From assembly GCA_021108005.1 (NCBI GenBank), contig JAIORS010000026.1, positions 1 through 46,122 on the forward strand: DNA of 46,122 nucleotides, given 5' to 3'. Numbering within the stretch: the first letter of the stretch is position 1; the number at the start of each line of letters is the position of its first letter. Made by a program: the position numbers and the translations under genes. Below, piece by piece: positions 22,609-44,678 of this stretch. The notes beneath the pieces were generated by a model, which saw only the letters and a program-made list of their open reading frames with translations, had not been told where the DNA came from and made no database searches. Source of the stretch: Candidatus Aegiribacteria sp. (GTDB lineage: Bacteria; Fermentibacterota; Fermentibacteria; Fermentibacterales; JCC-6).

Positions 22609-25600
22609 CTAGATAATCTGTAGAAGCGCGCTGCGCCTGTCGACAGAAATACGCATTTCCTTTTCAAGATTCATTGCCTTCATCCTGCAGTTGTCCCGTT
22701 TTTCAGCATCTTCGGGTGAAATGTTCTTTCTGAGATTAAACATACTGTAAAATGTCATTAATGTATCCGCAAGAGCTGGTTTCATACCGTAATTTTCAAA
22801 GATTTCTATTGCATTGCCGAATTCCATACTCCCCTTTTTGAATTGTTCAAGGGAGAAAAAGCGCATTCCAGAAAGCCGATGGATTATTGCCCTGCCTGCG
22901 GTTAACCCCATTTCTTCGACAAGGTATTCAGTCTCTTCAATTATTTCCATGATTCCATCTGAATTACCATTTTTCAGGTGAATATCCGCAAGGATGAGAA
23001 GCACAGCAAGCAGAAGGCTTTTCGCATTAACCTTCCTTGCCAGCTCCTCCGCTTCTCTCAGTGTGCCTTTGGCGGTTTCCTCATCCTCTTCCTCAATGGA
23101 AACCAGGGCAAGAAGCATAAGTGAACTTGCCTCTTCACGTTCAAATGATGACTTTCTTGAACGTTCAAGAGCTGTATTTCCAAGTTTTCTGGCTTTCTCC
23201 GATCTGCCCATTGCAAGATTGAGGACACCAAGCTGGTAGTGCGCGAGAAGTATATCATGAAGGGCGGGGAGTTCCTCAGCCTGGAGTCTGTACCTCTCCG
23301 CGGACTCAAGGGCTTTTTCAATCCATCCCGTTGAACTGTAGACATTGGACATATTACCGCTGGAACTCATGCATAACAGCTTATCACCAATTTCATTTGA
23401 GATGACCAGTTGTTTATTGTAGGAGTCAATTGCCTCGGCATACTCACCCAGTTTGTTTGAAACCAGGCCGATATTGCCATAGGTAACAGCCATTTCTCTC
23501 TTCATTTTGTGTTCAAGAGCTATATCAAGAGCCTTGAGATAGTACTCTCTGGCTTCAGTGTAGTCGCCATTCGCCCAGTGGACAGTGGCGATAGTATTGT
23601 AGGAAAAACCGCGTTGATGGGCATGTTCTGCTTCTCCGTAGCCATGCATATTTTCGGCAAGGTTGACAGCCTTCAGGGCTTTCTTCATAGCCAGGTCATT
23701 ATTACCCAATACGCAGTAGGCCCATGCCCGGAAGCATTCAATACGTGTGAAAAGGACGTTGTGCCTTCCCGGGTTCTGCAGCAGCATTTCTTCAGAGTTG
23801 TCAAGTAATTTCATAGACCTGTCAACGTCCCCGCGGGTGTAATGTATCTCGGCAATCGCTACTGAGATATCAACTTTCATGCCTATTTCATCTGATGACT
23901 CCATAGCCTGGCTGTAATATTCGAGAGCCTTATCGTACTTTCCTATTCTGTCATTGATCTTTCCGATATATCTACAGCATTCCACAAATTGATCCGGCTT
24001 GTGATCCGGGTGGTTTTCAATAATGTGAACAGCATCCTGAAAGTGCCTGATGGCGTTCAGATTTCGGTATTCCGACCAGGCCCTTTCACCTGCCATAAAG
24101 CTGTATTTCAGTGCTTTATCCCATTCTTCCGCAGTGCGGAAGTGATAGGCGAGTATGGAACACAACGCTTCAAGCTGGTCTGGATGCAGTTCCTCGAGTA
24201 TCAAACCAATGGCACCATGGATTTTCTTTCTCCGTTTTCTCAGAATGGAATCGTATGAGACGTCTTTTATCAGTGTATGCGAAAAAACGAACTCCAGTTC
24301 TTTCAACTCCGATTGATACATAAGACCTGCGCCGGTGCAATCCATGAGGCTATCATGAACATCCCGCCGCAAGACCGTTCTGACGATTTCTTCTTCGAAT
24401 CTGAAACCCGCAACACTGCCAATTCTGAGGCATTCCTTCGCCTGTATTTCCAGCCTGTCTATCCTGGCCATCACCATTGAGAAAATATTACCCGGCAGTT
24501 TATCGTCACTGTAAAGACTGGTTCTTACCCATGTATTGTCCTTCATCAGAATTAGTTTTTCCTCAATAATGTAGAGCAGGAACTGCATGAGATAGAATGG
24601 GTTTCCATTTGCTCTTTCCAGAATAAGGTTTTCTATTTCCTGCTCAAGAGATATACCATTAAGAATATCTATCATCAGCTTATTGGTTGCATTGTATCCC
24701 AGGCCTTTAAGGAGCATCCTGTGAACCGGGAATTCATCTTCTGCAAGCAGTTCTCGTTCTTCGGGTCTTTTTGAAAGAACGAAGGATACATTACCGTCTG
24801 TGTATTCAAGCAGTTGTCTGATAATGTATTCTACCGCTTCAATGTCTTCATCTGATGCATTGTGTGTATCTTCGAGAATGACGCATACGGGTTTGCGGTG
24901 AGATTTAATCATCTCGCAGATTCCATCGAGCAGATTCTCCTTTCTCAGTTTTGGAGGCAGTGTGTCGTAATCCGAATCCGGGTAGCTTAGAGAAAACAGC
25001 ATCTTTCCCAGGAAAACCTCCCGTTTTGAAAGGCTGCCGCCTGAATCATCAAGTTCATGGACAAGGTTCTGAAGTTTTTTCCTTCTGATTTCAGGTGAAT
25101 CATTATCCAGCATTCCGGAAAGATTTCCAATTAGTGACGCAAACAGGTCGTTTGTTTCTCCATGTTCATGGGAGGTTCCATGAAGTACGCAATAATCCTT
25201 TTCTTTCATACGTTCCGAGAGTTTTTTCAGGAGGCTCGTCTTACCTATGCCGGCATCGCCTTCGATTTCTATAACAGATTTTCCTTTAATTATTGTCGAT
25301 GAGATTTTGGAAAGCTCTTTTTCTCTTCCGACGAAGGGGTATCTGTCGCAGGAATCTGTTCTCCGCGCAACCGGAAAATACCGCCTGACTGAGCCTTCCT
25401 TGCCCTTAAGCATGATACTGTCCATAAATTCGTATTCGAAGTGATTACTGGACATCCTGTATACTCTTTCAGAAACTGCTATATCTCCAGGCCCGGATGA
25501 ATCTGCCAGACGGGCTGCAGTATTCACAACATCTCCAATAACGGTGTATTGCCTGCACCACGAATTGCCTATTACACCCGCGAAAGCATAGCCTTCGTCT

Positions 25601-26472
25601 ATACCGGTTCTTATCTGAAAGTTTCCCTGGTTTGATAGAAGACTGTTTATCTCCAGGCTTGCCTGAACTGCGTGAAGCAGATCATTTCCGTAGGAGCAAG
25701 GCGCTCCAAAAAGCAGGAATATCCTGCTTCCTCCAACAAGGATGTTGTCTACCATTTGAACAACACCTCTGTATTTTTGTGCGATATTCAGGATTTCAAG
25801 GTAGAGTTTCTGGATCTGGCTGCGGGGAGGTGCTTTCTTATCGTAACCTGAGAAGTTGACGAATACAGCTGTTACTGATCGATGCTCACCCTGAAGATTT
25901 CCGGTGTCAGGTGAGTAGAACGAGCTGTCCTGGTAATCAGGAGAGATGAAATCATCGAGTAAAACATGTGCCCCTGATCGAACAACAACCGTCTCTCCCT
26001 TTGCCGCGTTATCCTCGGCTACAGCTATCTTTTCAATAATATCACCTGCAAGGAAAATGCGGGCGCTCTTGCGGTTCCCTATGATAAATTCAGCCCACGA
26101 TCCGTACCCAAGAACTATTTTAATACTAAGTCCGCACATCCCGGAGCTGGTCTTCAGCTTCCTGAAGTTTTTCATTTCGCGCATCATTAAATTCGCGCAC
26201 ATGGATGAATCTTCTCCGGGTTGAAAACGCACAAGGATGGAATCTCCCGCGGAGGAGATGACAATACCCCCGTGTTTCCTTACGATTTCATACATCGCAC
26301 GGAAGTAACCGTTAAGAATCTCCGTAAGATTTTCAGTGCCCTTCTTGCCTTGAAGTGACAGTACCTCAGTCAGTTCAGTGAAACCTGATATATCGGCAAG
26401 CAACAGCGAACCGTTGTAAAGATGCTTTCCATGTTTTATCAGAGCTATATCTTCTGGAATGAATGGATTCAA
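22609..26472 (-). CDS. Soluble-adenylyl-cyclase-like protein: tandem class III cyclase domains, AAA-type NTPase, TPR array
   Basis: 1287 residues, cytoplasmic. Order: cyclase domain C1 (about 20-165), cyclase domain C2 (about 198-340), NTPase of the AAA_16/STAND type with P-loop GDAGIGKT (405-412), and a TPR region (about 760-1260). C1 keeps both metal Asps (LLADISGFT Asp27; SSAGDSIL Asp77) but has no transition-state Asn/Arg pair. C2 has lost both metal Asps (VFVNFSGYD Asn206; GGSRIF Ser249) but keeps VVNTAAR (Asn317, Arg321). One composite active site can therefore form, as in mammalian sAC (ADCY10), which has the same C1-C2-NTPase-TPR order. TTG start with GAGGA 9 bases ahead. ATP versus GTP preference cannot be read. 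Confidence 0.9.
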   Translation of the reverse strand: MNPFIPEDIALIKHGKHLYNGSLLLADISGFTELTEVLSLQGKKGTENLTEILNGYFRAMYEIVRKHGGIVISSAGDSILVRFQPGEDSSMCANLMMREMKNFRKLKTSSGMCGLSIKIVLGYGSWAEFIIGNRKSARIFLAGDIIEKIAVAEDNAAKGETVVVRSGAHVLLDDFISPDYQDSSFYSPDTGNLQGEHRSVTAVFVNFSGYDKKAPPRSQIQKLYLEILNIAQKYRGVVQMVDNILVGGSRIFLLFGAPCSYGNDLLHAVQASLEINSLLSNQGNFQIRTGIDEGYAFAGVIGNSWCRQYTVIGDVVNTAARLADSSGPGDIAVSERVYRMSSNHFEYEFMDSIMLKGKEGSVRRYFPVARRTDSCDRYPFVGREKELSKISSTIIKGKSVIEIEGDAGIGKTSLLKKLSERMKEKDYCVLHGTSHEHGETNDLFASLIGNLSGMLDNDSPEIRRKKLQNLVHELDDSGGSLSKREVFLGKMLFSLSYPDSDYDTLPPKLRKENLLDGICEMIKSHRKPVCVILEDTHNASDEDIEAVEYIIRQLLEYTDGNVSFVLSKRPEERELLAEDEFPVHRMLLKGLGYNATNKLMIDILNGISLEQEIENLILERANGNPFYLMQFLLYIIEEKLILMKDNTWVRTSLYSDDKLPGNIFSMVMARIDRLEIQAKECLRIGSVAGFRFEEEIVRTVLRRDVHDSLMDCTGAGLMYQSELKELEFVFSHTLIKDVSYDSILRKRRKKIHGAIGLILEELHPDQLEALCSILAYHFRTAEEWDKALKYSFMAGERAWSEYRNLNAIRHFQDAVHIIENHPDHKPDQFVECCRYIGKINDRIGKYDKALEYYSQAMESSDEIGMKVDISVAIAEIHYTRGDVDRSMKLLDNSEEMLLQNPGRHNVLFTRIECFRAWAYCVLGNNDLAMKKALKAVNLAENMHGYGEAEHAHQRGFSYNTIATVHWANGDYTEAREYYLKALDIALEHKMKREMAVTYGNIGLVSNKLGEYAEAIDSYNKQLVISNEIGDKLLCMSSSGNMSNVYSSTGWIEKALESAERYRLQAEELPALHDILLAHYQLGVLNLAMGRSEKARKLGNTALERSRKSSFEREEASSLMLLALVSIEEEDEETAKGTLREAEELARKVNAKSLLLAVLLILADIHLKNGNSDGIMEIIEETEYLVEEMGLTAGRAIIHRLSGMRFFSLEQFKKGSMEFGNAIEIFENYGMKPALADTLMTFYSMFNLRKNISPEDAEKRDNCRMKAMNLEKEMRISVDRRSALLQII

Positions 26473-26627
26473 TTTGCAATTCCTCGGTTAATACCCAGAT
26501 ATCAATTTTGAATACTGGAAATGTGGTCTGCCGGCTCTAATTGAAACCGGAATATTCATCCATTGCGGAACTGCCTAATAATAATAAATTATATTGCAGT
26601 TGTTACAAGGTATGGAAGGAAAATAAT

Positions 26628-27251
26628 ATGGCTGACAGAAAAGTGTCCGAGAGAACGATAAGGCGTTTAAGCCATTATGCCCGTTGTCTGCGCGATGCCA
26701 GGTCAAGGGGGGATAGCACGGTTACATCCAGTTACTTATCCAGGCAATGCGGCATTTCTTCTGCAGCGGTAAGAAAGGATTTAACCGTTTTCGGAGAATT
26801 CGGAAAGCAGGGCTCAGGTTACGATGTGGATGATCTTCTGGCACAGATTGAAAGAATCCTGGGAACTTGTGATTCGCCTTCAATAATAATCATCGGTGCC
26901 GGTAATATTGGCAGAGCACTGCTTGAATCCGGCCTGGAGTGTACGGGAGGATACTCCTACTCGGCTATTTTCGACATAGATCCTGATCTGGTTGGTACGC
27001 GATGTGCGGGGCATATAATAAAACCCATTGATGATATCCGTAGTACGGTATCAGGTTACGAGCACTTTATCGCGGTAATAGCGGTTACAACGGGAGAAGG
27101 ACAGAAGGTTGTTAACAGGCTTGCAAAGGCAGGATGCCGGGCTATGCTGAGTTTCAATCTGGAACCGCTCGAATTGCCGGAAGGAGTTGAGCTGCGCTAT
27201 ATGGAGATGTCCACCGAACTGGATATGCTTACCCATTCCATGAAGACGTAG
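26628..27251 (+). CDS. rex: Redox-sensing transcriptional repressor Rex
   Basis: 207 residues from ATG 26628 (GGAAGGA 7 bases ahead; the longer frame from 26541 is not needed). N-terminal winged helix (SERTIRRLSHYARCLRD, SYLSRQCGISSAAVRKDL), Rossmann NADH domain with GAGNIG (90-95), and the C-terminal domain-swap helix. Binds NADH/NAD+ and represses fermentative or anaerobic energy genes at low NADH. Family recognition is secure. I found no full Rex operator (TTGTGAA-type palindrome) in the divergent gap. Confidence 0.95.
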   Translation: MADRKVSERTIRRLSHYARCLRDARSRGDSTVTSSYLSRQCGISSAAVRKDLTVFGEFGKQGSGYDVDDLLAQIERILGTCDSPSIIIIGAGNIGRALLESGLECTGGYSYSAIFDIDPDLVGTRCAGHIIKPIDDIRSTVSGYEHFIAVIAVTTGEGQKVVNRLAKAGCRAMLSFNLEPLELPEGVELRYMEMSTELDMLTHSMKT

Positions 27252-31727: not shown

Positions 31728-31897
31728 ATGCTAATACCTCAATAATCGGTTCTACAGAATTCTCGGATAGAATCTGAAATACTCAGTAGTTCCGATCCTG
31801 TACAGTTTCCGAGAAGGGCAGCTTCATTCACTATTTCATTCCCAACGAGTATCGGTTATTGTATTGGCATCATAACAAGAATGCAGGAGGTACATCT

Positions 31898-33403
31898 TTG
31901 AACGCCCAGATGATAATACATGGTATTCAGGCAATTGTTCTGGGTTTATCTGTTGGCCTCATTCTCCTGATTATCCGGAAGCATGCTCCCGGCAGCAAAT
32001 TGAAACTGTGGGTACTTCTTGCTGGAATCGCTGGCGCAGCATATCTTGTAATGAAAATGTTCGGTGTTCCAGGGGAATCCACATTCTCAAAGATGGCCCT
32101 TGCGGCCACCATCATGCTTTCTTCGAACATCATGCTGCAGATTCTGAACCTGCTGTTATGGGACTATCTTTTAAAAAAACAGGTTGATGTTCATATTCCA
32201 AGGCTTGTAATAGATATCATCAATTTCATAGTACTTGCGATTGTGGCTGTTGCCCTTCTGAACGGAATATTCGGAGTTAAACTTACAGCGTTCCTTGTAA
32301 CATCCACTGTGCTTTCGGCAGTAATCGGTCTTTCTCTTCAGGATATTCTGGGCAACCTCTTTGCCGGGCTGGCTCTTCAGATGGAACGGCCCTACAAACT
32401 TGGTGAATGGATAAATGTTGGTGATGAAGAGGGGGTTGTTGTCCAGATGAACTGGAGAACACTCAGCATTCGAACAAGATCCGGTGACCATGTAATAATT
32501 CCGAACGCAACGGTATCCAAGGATATCGTAACGAATTACTCCCGTCCCGACAGGAATCATATGTGCCGGATATCGGTTGGAATGGCTTATGCCGATCAAC
32601 CTGGAAAGATGAAAAGGATAATTATTTCGATTCTGAAAAAAATGGATGGAGTTCTTGATGCTCCATCACCAAGGGTATTCCTCAGTAAATTCGATGATTA
32701 CTCCATTATTTATGATGTCAGGTTCTGGATAAGTGAATATCACAGGAGGCCGGAGTTAGAGAACGCAGTGAGAACTCGAATCTGGTACGGTTTAAAGCGT
32801 AACGGCCTGACTATCCCGTTCCCCATAAGAGATGTGACAATCAGGGAGGTATCTGCCGAACAGGAGGACAGGGTAAACGAGAATATGAAACAGGATGTTA
32901 TCCGTGAACTCAGGAACATCGAACTGTTCAAACCACTGTCTTACGATCAGATAGATGAGCTTGCTGCAAATTCATCAAAACTACTGTTCTCCAAAGGGGA
33001 ACTCCTGGTTCAGCAGGGGGATTCCGGTGACTCCCTTTTCATTATTTCGGACGGTGAAGTGGAGATATCCGTTTCTGACAGCACTGGAAGAAGAACCCAT
33101 CTGGTTGATCTTCACAGGGGAGACTACTTTGGTGAAATGAGTCTTCTTACAGGTGAGCCGCGTTCTGCTTCTGTTACCGCTATTTGTGAAACTGAAGTGA
33201 TAGTCGTTGAGAAGAGTGGAATGGCTGAATTACTGGAGCAGGAATCTTCGATTCTTGAACCTCTTTCCGCCATGCTTGAGAAGAGAATGGAAGACCTTTC
33301 AGGAAGAGTAACAAAACAGACGGGAAAGAAAAAGAGCGTGGAACAGCCTGACAGAAAGGAGCACCTGATTGGTAGAATCAGGGATTTCTTCGGCATAGGA
33401 TAA
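31898..33403 (+). CDS. MscS-family channel with C-terminal cyclic-nucleotide-binding domain (bCNG-like)
   Basis: 501 residues from TTG 31898: AGGAGG lies 7 bases ahead, whereas the frame's earlier start (31859) has no RBS. Four or so TM helices; the pore/MscS signature LLSAVIGLSLQDILGNLFAG-like segment is at about residues 137-157 (wording TVLSAVIGLSLQDILGNLF). Beta domain GEWINVGDEEGVVVQMNWRT; C-terminal CRP-type cNMP domain about 345-465 with the phosphate-binding cassette FGEMSLLTGEPRSASV (Glu and Arg ligands present). Members of this subfamily open on cAMP and conduct weakly mechanosensitively. The TAA stop abuts a palindromic repeat. Confidence 0.92.
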   Translation: MNAQMIIHGIQAIVLGLSVGLILLIIRKHAPGSKLKLWVLLAGIAGAAYLVMKMFGVPGESTFSKMALAATIMLSSNIMLQILNLLLWDYLLKKQVDVHIPRLVIDIINFIVLAIVAVALLNGIFGVKLTAFLVTSTVLSAVIGLSLQDILGNLFAGLALQMERPYKLGEWINVGDEEGVVVQMNWRTLSIRTRSGDHVIIPNATVSKDIVTNYSRPDRNHMCRISVGMAYADQPGKMKRIIISILKKMDGVLDAPSPRVFLSKFDDYSIIYDVRFWISEYHRRPELENAVRTRIWYGLKRNGLTIPFPIRDVTIREVSAEQEDRVNENMKQDVIRELRNIELFKPLSYDQIDELAANSSKLLFSKGELLVQQGDSGDSLFIISDGEVEISVSDSTGRRTHLVDLHRGDYFGEMSLLTGEPRSASVTAICETEVIVVEKSGMAELLEQESSILEPLSAMLEKRMEDLSGRVTKQTGKKKSVEQPDRKEHLIGRIRDFFGIG

Positions 33404-42062: not shown

Positions 42063-44678
42063 TTACCTGGTATCCAGTATATCTCTTATCTTCTGGCGAA
42101 GAGCAGTGAGACTGAAGGGTTTCTGCAACAGCTCCTTGTCGCCTTTTTTTACGTCATCAGGCATGATCTCGCTTTTCATATAGCCGGTCATATAAAGGAT
42201 ACCGCCGTTGAAACCATCCTCTTTCAGCAAAGAAGCAAGAATTACGCCGCTGATGCCAGGCAAAACAATATCGGTAAGAAGGAACTGGAATTCATCACTG
42301 TTGCCTTCAAAGATTTTCAATGCTTCTTCCGCCGATACGGCAGACACCACCTTGTAGCCCTCTCGGGAAAGGTATCGCTCAACTATGCCTCTCAGGGCTT
42401 CATCATCCTCCACCAGAAGGATGTTCTCGCCTTTGCCGGATTCGGAGTTTTTTTCGGTCTGCTCCTCATGGTGAATATGTTCTCCCTCAACCCTGGGCAG
42501 ATATACCATGAAGGTTGTACCCACAGCGGGTTCACTGCTTACCTCAATAACTCCGTTGCTCTGTTTAATTATACCGTACACCATGGCAAGGCCGAGGCCG
42601 CTGCCTTTTACACTAAGCTTGGTGGAATAGAAAGGTTCGAAGATACGAGCCTGTGTATCTGCGTCCATTCCGCATCCGGTATCGCTGATAGAAAGTTGCA
42701 TGTACTGACCTGGATGAAGATCGGGATTGGTCACCAGTGAGTGTTCGTCAATATCAACGTTGCCAATCTCGATAGTGAGTTTACCCCCTGATCTCATGGC
42801 ATCTCTTGCGTTTATCACCAGATTGACGATTACCTGTTCGATCTGGCTTTCATCAGCGAAAACACATCCTGCGTCCTGCGGAAAGGATGTAAGAAGCTGA
42901 ATATCCTCGCTCAGCAGCCTGCTCAGCATCCTCTGAAGTCCTGATACGATCCTGCCCAGGTCCAGAACCCTCGGCTGCAGTATCTGCTGCCTGCTGAATG
43001 CAAGAAGCTGCTTGGTGAGTAGAGAGGCTCGATCGGCGGCTTTGCGTATTCCCTCGGCATCCGGTCGCATGGGATGGGTTCCAGGAATATCTAAAAGAAT
43101 GAATTCTGTATGACCCTTTATCACCGTAAGCAGGTTGTTGAAGTCGTGTGCGATCCCTCCCGCAAGCCTTCCGACAGCATCTAGTTTCTGCGACTGAAGA
43201 AGCTGAGCCTCAAGTATCTTCCTGTTGGTAATATCCCGCACCAGAGACTGGATACCCTGTGAAACACCGTCCCGCTCAACGACAGCAACACCAACCTCAA
43301 GCCAGATTCTGCCCCCACCTTTCTTAAGGCCTTCGAACTCGAATCTGTCGGGAACGTCCTCACCGGAAAGGTACCGTGTGTGGTAATCCAGAACCTTTTC
43401 TCTCCATTCCGGAGCAACACATCTGAAAGAATCCATATTCAGAAGATCATTCCGGGAGTAACCGAATATTTTCAGGAAACGGTCATTGGCGAAAAGAATT
43501 TTGCCCTTCTGATCATCAATCATTACCCCGTCAGAGATATGCTCCACCATCCTGCTGAGGAAATCGTTTTTTTCCTTAAGAAGTTCCTCAAGTTCCATGT
43601 TTTTCTTAAGAAGTTCTTCCTTGTGGACACTTATCTCCACATTGGCTTTCTTAAGCGATTCAGATTGTATCTCTATGAGGTGTTTCTTTTCTACTAGTTC
43701 AGTATTCTTAAGACGGTGAATTTCCGCTTCATGTTCAGCTTTCTCCGTCTGGTATTTAACATCTATCTCTGCAATGGCCTTGCTTTTCTCCAGATTGAAG
43801 AGTTTTCTCTCCAGTTCACTCATCCTTCTGTGATATTCAAGTGATTTCTTGAAATCCTGTTCCTTCTCGTAAAGCTCGCTGAGAGAATGGCATCCCTGCA
43901 TCATGAAATCCAATGCTTCTGACTGTTCAGCTATTTCAAGGCCCCTGTTCAGATATTCACGGGCATCGGTGTAATTACCCAGCTGAACATTACTTGTACC
44001 TATATTGATGTAATTGCCGGCAAGTGATCTCAGTTCTCCCACCTGTTCGCTGAGTTCCGCAGATCTCTTGAAGCAGGCGATTGCCTCTTCCAGGTTATCG
44101 TTCTTATAGTGGAGGATGCCAATATTGTTGGTGGCACTTCTGATCGTTTTTGTATCATCCTCTCCTATGGCCAATTCCAGTGATTTTGTCAGGTGCTTCA
44201 GCGCTTCTTCGTCTCTGTCTGAACTGAGAAGAACCAGACCAGTTGAGTTAAGGTTACTTGCGAGCTGTTTCCTGTCGCCGAGTTCTTCGTAAAGTGCCCT
44301 GCTTCTACCAAGATACTCAAGGGCATTTTCCTGTTCAGCACTTGAGTGATATACCTGAGCGATGTTTCCAAGCACTTTGGCCACACCCTGCTTTGAATCA
44401 AGTTTTTCGAAAAGAGAAAGAGCACTGTGAAGGTGTTTCAGGGCTTCAGCATGAGTAAGCTGACCAAGACAGGCTCTGCCAAGTGCATTCAGAGCTTTTG
44501 CTTCCAGCAGTCTGGACCCGGTGGATACCGATAGACTAAGGGCTTCTTCCGCGTATGAACGGGCTTTAGCAGGGGATACCTTGCAGTTCCTGAGGGAAAG
44601 ATCTATCAGTAGATCGATACGCTCCTTATCGGTTACCGATCTAAGTCTATCTTCCAGCGCCTGTATCGAATCGATCAT
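42063..44678 (-). CDS. Hybrid histidine kinase: TPR - coiled coil - PAS - HisKA - HATPase - REC
   Basis: 871 residues, no TM segment. TPR array about 60-300 (repeated ALxxLGxxxxxxG...A), coiled coil about 300-372, PAS domain about 373-488 (ISDGVMIDDQKGKILFANDR), HisKA with LAGGIAHDFNNLLTV (His511), HATPase (N-box VINARDAM, G1 SDTGCGMD, G2 KGSGLGLAMVYGI), and C-terminal receiver ILLVEDDEAL...LTDIVLPG (Asp803). A cytosolic sensor in which TPRs probably recruit a partner protein. No cognate DNA-binding regulator next to it. Confidence 0.94.
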   Translation of the reverse strand: MIDSIQALEDRLRSVTDKERIDLLIDLSLRNCKVSPAKARSYAEEALSLSVSTGSRLLEAKALNALGRACLGQLTHAEALKHLHSALSLFEKLDSKQGVAKVLGNIAQVYHSSAEQENALEYLGRSRALYEELGDRKQLASNLNSTGLVLLSSDRDEEALKHLTKSLELAIGEDDTKTIRSATNNIGILHYKNDNLEEAIACFKRSAELSEQVGELRSLAGNYINIGTSNVQLGNYTDAREYLNRGLEIAEQSEALDFMMQGCHSLSELYEKEQDFKKSLEYHRRMSELERKLFNLEKSKAIAEIDVKYQTEKAEHEAEIHRLKNTELVEKKHLIEIQSESLKKANVEISVHKEELLKKNMELEELLKEKNDFLSRMVEHISDGVMIDDQKGKILFANDRFLKIFGYSRNDLLNMDSFRCVAPEWREKVLDYHTRYLSGEDVPDRFEFEGLKKGGGRIWLEVGVAVVERDGVSQGIQSLVRDITNRKILEAQLLQSQKLDAVGRLAGGIAHDFNNLLTVIKGHTEFILLDIPGTHPMRPDAEGIRKAADRASLLTKQLLAFSRQQILQPRVLDLGRIVSGLQRMLSRLLSEDIQLLTSFPQDAGCVFADESQIEQVIVNLVINARDAMRSGGKLTIEIGNVDIDEHSLVTNPDLHPGQYMQLSISDTGCGMDADTQARIFEPFYSTKLSVKGSGLGLAMVYGIIKQSNGVIEVSSEPAVGTTFMVYLPRVEGEHIHHEEQTEKNSESGKGENILLVEDDEALRGIVERYLSREGYKVVSAVSAEEALKIFEGNSDEFQFLLTDIVLPGISGVILASLLKEDGFNGGILYMTGYMKSEIMPDDVKKGDKELLQKPFSLTALRQKIRDILDTR

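Follow-up and report, generated by a model that had tools for sequence, protein, structure and literature searches.

The stretch of DNA analysed here (the window, 46,122 nucleotides) is an entire contig of the 3.2 Mb draft genome of its host, Candidatus Aegiribacteria (Fermentibacterota). Its reverse strand encodes, from a TTG start, a protein whose limits agree exactly with those given in a preliminary description of this DNA (Table 1). The TTG and the Asn of the next codon are kept in most close orthologues. A scan for promoters and terminators was uninformative, with 8 found against 7.5 expected. Pfam recognizes PF00211 (Guanylate_cyc) in two stretches, AAA_16 at aa 379–553 and then a long run of TPRs, and profiles built on orthologues of the protein place C1 at about aa 17–165, C2 at 192–372, the NTPase at 376–800 and the TPRs at 800–1240; a Walker A motif, GDAGIGKT, lies at aa 405–412, inside the NTPase module. 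A single chain carries tandem cyclase domains (C1 and C2) followed by NTPase and TPR, the order already proposed in that description and borne out by both Pfam and the orthologue domain profiles.

Table 1. Coordinates in the window of the cyclase gene, its domains and the residues aligned with functional residues of human soluble adenylyl cyclase (sAC).
Feature	Position	Strand	Evidence or conservation
Whole gene, C1-C2-STAND NTPase-TPR cyclase	22609..26472	-	1287 aa; open frame kept in full-length orthologues compared
gagga, Shine-Dalgarno-like, 8 nt upstream of TTG	26481..26485	-	Sequence; similar motif in several orthologues
C1 cyclase domain, aa 15-165	25978..26430	-	phmmer, orthologue domain profiles, predicted structure, profile alignment
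C2 cyclase domain, aa 193-372	25357..25896	-	Pfam, phmmer, domain profiles, predicted structure, profile alignment
STAND-type NTPase module, aa 376-800	24073..25347	-	Pfam AAA_16, invariant G/K columns, fold match 6mfv
TPR superhelix, probable sensor, aa 801-1287	22612..24072	-	Pfam TPRs, predicted structure, fold match
D27, first metal Asp (human sAC D47)	26392..26394	-	21/21 orthologues, one further row truncated
D77, second metal Asp (human sAC D99)	26242..26244	-	22/22 orthologues
K118, pyrophosphate-binding Lys (human sAC K144)	26119..26121	-	K or R in 22/22 orthologues
S73, replaces bicarbonate-binding Lys K95 of human sAC	26254..26256	-	Alignments
A150, replaces bicarbonate switch Arg R176 of human sAC	26023..26025	-	Alignments
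M240, replaces base-reading Lys K334 of human sAC	25753..25755	-	Lys in 0/22 orthologues
T310, adenine contact (human sAC T405)	25543..25545	-	22/22 orthologues
N317 (human sAC N412)	25522..25524	-	22/22 orthologues
R321, alpha-phosphate contact (human sAC R416)	25510..25512	-	Gly in 3/22 orthologues

Within the genus, the surrounding genes keep the order PEPCK-cyclase-cobO-OMP-rlmN-MTAP-thiL-channel, which is broken in more distant loci (rlmN, MTAP, thiL and the outer-membrane-like protein were named by reading translations, with no family search behind the names). Divergent beside the cyclase of the window stands rex (26541–27251, forward strand), in a place held elsewhere in the genus by cobO; a functional link to Rex was rejected, because only the window and two relatives have rex next to the cyclase. 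The channel (31859–33403, forward strand, ~5 kb from the cyclase) is of the MscS mechanosensitive type, with a C-terminal cNMP-binding domain whose phosphate-binding cassette looks intact (GEMSLLTGEPRSASV), as in bacterial cyclic-nucleotide-gated channels. Farther along, a hybrid sensor kinase with TPR, PAS, HisKA, HATPase and receiver domains occupies 42063–44678 on the reverse strand.

The top PDB sequence match of the cyclase is human ADCY10 (sAC), collinear over both domains (phmmer E 2.5e-22; profile search E 1e-47). Residues were mapped onto the functional residue table of human sAC (PMC12867704) by profile alignment, with the register confirmed by MAFFT; a phmmer pairing of human K144 with a non-Lys residue was rejected, since the profile alignment and MAFFT both give K118. 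The metal Asps lie in C1 and the Thr, Asn and Arg in C2, the other half being gone from each domain. The preliminary description had read D27 and D77 as the metal ligands of C1, N206 and S249 as their lost counterparts in C2, and N317 and R321 as the pair kept there, and these assignments are correct, with N206 at the position of human N298. Its inventory overlooked K118 and T310, both kept, and the lost bicarbonate residues. Its central idea, complementary loss that leaves one possible active site per chain built from C1 and C2, is supported by the alignments: the composite site holds the metal ligands, the pyrophosphate Lys, Thr, Asn and Arg, with only the base Lys missing, and the mirror site has neither metal Asps nor an Asn/Arg pair. 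The class III hallmark of two metal Asps and an Asn/Arg pair in one composite site is present (D27, D77, N317 and R321). Judged by how these residues are conserved in 22 orthologous cyclase regions (Table 1), the match to human sAC is far beyond chance. Both charged residues of the human-type bicarbonate pocket are lost, and none of the orthologues (22 cyclase regions aligned) has the K95 and R176 equivalents together.

An AlphaFold2 model of aa 1–380, calculated with 22 related sequences as input and without ligand, reached a pLDDT of 89.6 and a pTM of 0.90. When compared with the PDB by Foldseek, its 24 best matches were 24 human sAC entries, aligned over both domains with TMq up to 0.82, and transmembrane adenylyl cyclase pairs came next. 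This ranking supports the wreath-like C1–C2 pair that had been anticipated, and the cyclase homology fold and domain pairing are seen alike in PF00211, the model and the Foldseek matches. AlphaFold can bring class III domains into canonical pairing regardless of activity. The NTPase–TPR half was modelled with a pLDDT of 84.5 and a pTM of 0.80, with low confidence at model residues 303–372 (about aa 674–743), and its best PDB fold match is the STAND–TPR protein 6mfv at a modest TMq of 0.37.

Full-length orthologues, 35–72% identical, are present in the host's genus, family and order; remoter ones come from bacteria elsewhere, some of their records being titled Desulfuromonas sp. SDB or assigned to unclassified bacteria. 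The full-length homologue in the Desulfuromonas-titled record is 31% identical and may reflect transfer or a mislabelled contig; in it and in five further orthologue-like proteins from other bacterial families, the C2 position of the first metal ligand has Lys or Gln instead of Asn.

Across the 22 orthologous cyclase regions, which are 36–78% identical to that of the window, D27, D77, T310 and N317 are unchanged. Random loss of catalytic residues among orthologues had been named as the sign of a pseudoenzyme, and here the picture is mixed: these four residues and K118 (as Lys or Arg) are kept, and R321 has become Gly on two branches that lie apart in the tree. On one branch, a GGG codon (Gly) stands where a 92% identical relative has AGG (Arg); on the other, two orthologues also have Arg at K356 and Gly or Arg at K358. 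The two independent losses make some orthologues possible pseudoenzymes. For the window protein itself, we consider it unlikely that the cyclase pair binds a nucleotide without catalysis and acts within a STAND signalling protein as a scaffold or regulatory element. Such a role would fit the loss of the base Lys in all orthologues, the repeated loss of R321 with its accompanying changes at K356 and K358 on one branch, and the presence of a class III cyclase-like ATP-binding protein (6yii) among the fold matches; against it stand the invariance of the metal Asps, T310 and N317 and the restriction of K118 to Lys or Arg at such sequence distances, as well as selection. In close orthologue pairs dN/dS is 0.12–0.20, and purifying selection on C1 and C2 is about as strong as on the remaining protein. 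Together with the kept D/D/K(R)/T/N set, this purifying selection argues for an active cyclase that probably uses ATP.

The choice of substrate is uncertain because the base-reading Lys is replaced in every orthologue; the preliminary description was correct that this Lys is not evident, and its position holds M, L, S, H or V in 22/22 orthologues. Class III guanylyl cyclases are expected to have a Glu/Cys pair. That pair is absent here, and the adenine-contacting Thr at the T405 position is kept in all 22; despite the missing purine-selecting Lys, we therefore see only a slim chance that the enzyme is active on a different or relaxed substrate, such as GTP or a pyrimidine nucleotide. In human sAC, moreover, K334 contacts the base only via water (PMC12867704), and this, with the retention of T310, makes ATP the most likely substrate.

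The design itself is widespread. C1-C2-NTPase-TPR order is found in five proteins of the host's own genome (that of the window and those on contigs 94, 143, 125 and 201), and two further paralogues place a single cyclase domain ahead of the NTPase. These STAND–TPR cyclase paralogues, four tandem and two single-domain, lie on contigs 63, 94, 125, 143, 187 and 201 and are ~23–25% identical to the window protein. When 290 genomes were searched with a profile, tandem C1–C2 matches came from at least 16 that lie beyond the host's order, and 20/20 stretches fetched from genomes outside the order have C1, C2, NTPase and TPR. Plasmid-borne relatives occur in rhizobia, Leptospira and others, and where annotated are called 'adenylate/guanylate cyclase domain-containing protein'. 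Across 35 tandem proteins, paralogous or distant, the equivalents of D47 and D99 are both present in 35/35 and those of N412 and R416 each in 34/35, so that the complementary split, seen with single-site exceptions, is the rule of the family. Loss of the base Lys is also common, the residue being kept in just 9 of the 35, and none has Arg at the R176 position. According to Kobayashi, Buck and Levin 2004, as cited in PMC3085406 and PMC6023465, bacterial and eukaryotic sACs conserve their domain structure; a literature search on Fermentibacteria cyclases found no paper. As both the design and the shared active site are common, and already described in bacteria, the window cyclase is best seen as an ordinary, if well-preserved, member of this family.

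The special link to mammalian sAC implied at the outset is not supported, given that the same architecture and split recur among many bacterial families and, in the host's genome alone, in five proteins. The phylogeny called for in the preliminary description points the same way. In a maximum-likelihood tree of C1 and C2, in which fragments of human sAC from a PDB chain are the single eukaryotic sequence, the window protein falls with 100% support in a clade separate from human sAC and not sister to it. The long branch of the human sequence attaches close to other bacterial tandem proteins; support for this placement, as for the deep branches generally, is weak. On sequence grounds, the window cyclase is a relative of mammalian sAC, not its orthologue. 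That it could be a true bacterial ADCY10 orthologue, regulated by bicarbonate and ancestral to the animal gene, is scarcely credible: the domain order is identical and ADCY10 is the best PDB match, but the equivalents of K95 and R176 are both missing, the base-reading K334 is M240, ADCY10 groups, if weakly, with other bacterial tandem cyclases outside the window clade, and many bacterial families share the architecture.

From the residues present, stimulation by bicarbonate through a human-type site is not expected. Loss of that site does not by itself imply loss of activity, since the sAC enzymes of sea urchin and salmon, each with one bicarbonate residue missing, are active and controlled by pH while blind to bicarbonate (PMC12867704). 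A conserved Thr has served elsewhere to predict regulation by bicarbonate (PMC3383692), and in our own reading this Thr corresponds to the T405 position; the criteria therefore conflict for the window cyclase, where this Thr is kept, yet the equivalents of K95 and R176 are lost.

Taken as a whole, we regard the protein as probably a cytoplasmic class III cyclase of the bacterial sAC-like type, with one composite site, cAMP as its likeliest product and a STAND–TPR switch. C1 and C2 of one chain would fold together into a single catalytic site, with both metal Asps and the pyrophosphate Lys supplied by C1, and Thr310, Asn317 and Arg321 by C2. The pseudo-symmetric site opposite would be dead, and the bicarbonate pocket that adjoins the active site in human sAC would be absent. 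Behind this pair, the STAND NTPase and TPR superhelix form the likeliest switch: a ligand or partner binding the TPRs may change the state of the NTPase and so release the cyclase. The signal could then be read by cNMP-binding proteins of the same genome, which encodes seven cNMP-binding domains (the MscS-type channel of the window has one) and in which no class I cyclase was found. The channel could plausibly read the cyclase product. Channels of this type with a cNMP-binding domain occur in 27/40 relatives, also in genomes where no orthologue of the window cyclase was detected; as the gene order is only genus-wide and the channel occurs without the cyclase, their linkage looks like shared regional ancestry and is no proof of function. 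Quite unlikely, in our view, is a more unusual role for the subclade that lacks both the base Lys and the bicarbonate site, in which its members would make an unexpected cyclic nucleotide, or act as nucleotide-sensing pseudocyclases, under STAND–TPR control and possibly upon the nearby channel.

For the window protein the message is chiefly corrective, in that bicarbonate sensing should not be assumed. More broadly, a layout with a single active site, thought of as characteristic of mammalian sAC, is the norm in a large bacterial family that has expanded within Fermentibacterota genomes, and this makes the bacterial members practical models for how a STAND–TPR module controls a cyclase. The STAND module of sAC is already known; the specific activity of purified full-length mammalian sAC falls below that of the truncated enzyme, a difference linked to inclusion of the P-loop region, and no regulator specific to the P-loop half of the mammalian enzyme has been found (PMC12802110).

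Several known systems come close. The bacterial sAC-like C1-C2-AAA/STAND-TPR cyclases share the architecture, the residue split and the Thr at the T405 position; the window protein differs in belonging to a well-supported subclade in which the C2 beta2/beta3 loop is longer and the base Lys is missing. The TIGR03903 TOMM system kinase/cyclase fusion protein matches over its cyclase-NTPase-TPR portion (E 3e-52), although the score of 178 is below the cut-off of 706 and the match spans only aa 223–1152, leaving C1 outside. PH0952, the STAND–TPR protein of entry 6mfv, resembles the NTPase–TPR half and has no cyclase. Plasmodium adenylyl cyclase beta is comparable through its published description, in which the motifs of PfACbeta and mammalian sAC are spread over two domains and read as intramolecular heterodimerization (PMC3383692), but it is eukaryotic and carries charged inserts. 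Human sAC itself (ADCY10; PDB 4clf and others) has the same metal Asps in C1, the same Thr, Asn and Arg in C2, a dead second site and, following the cyclase pair, a P-loop STAND module; it differs in its K95, R176 and K334, of which the window cyclase has no equivalents, in an identity of only ~20% over C1–C2 and in its separate place in the tree.
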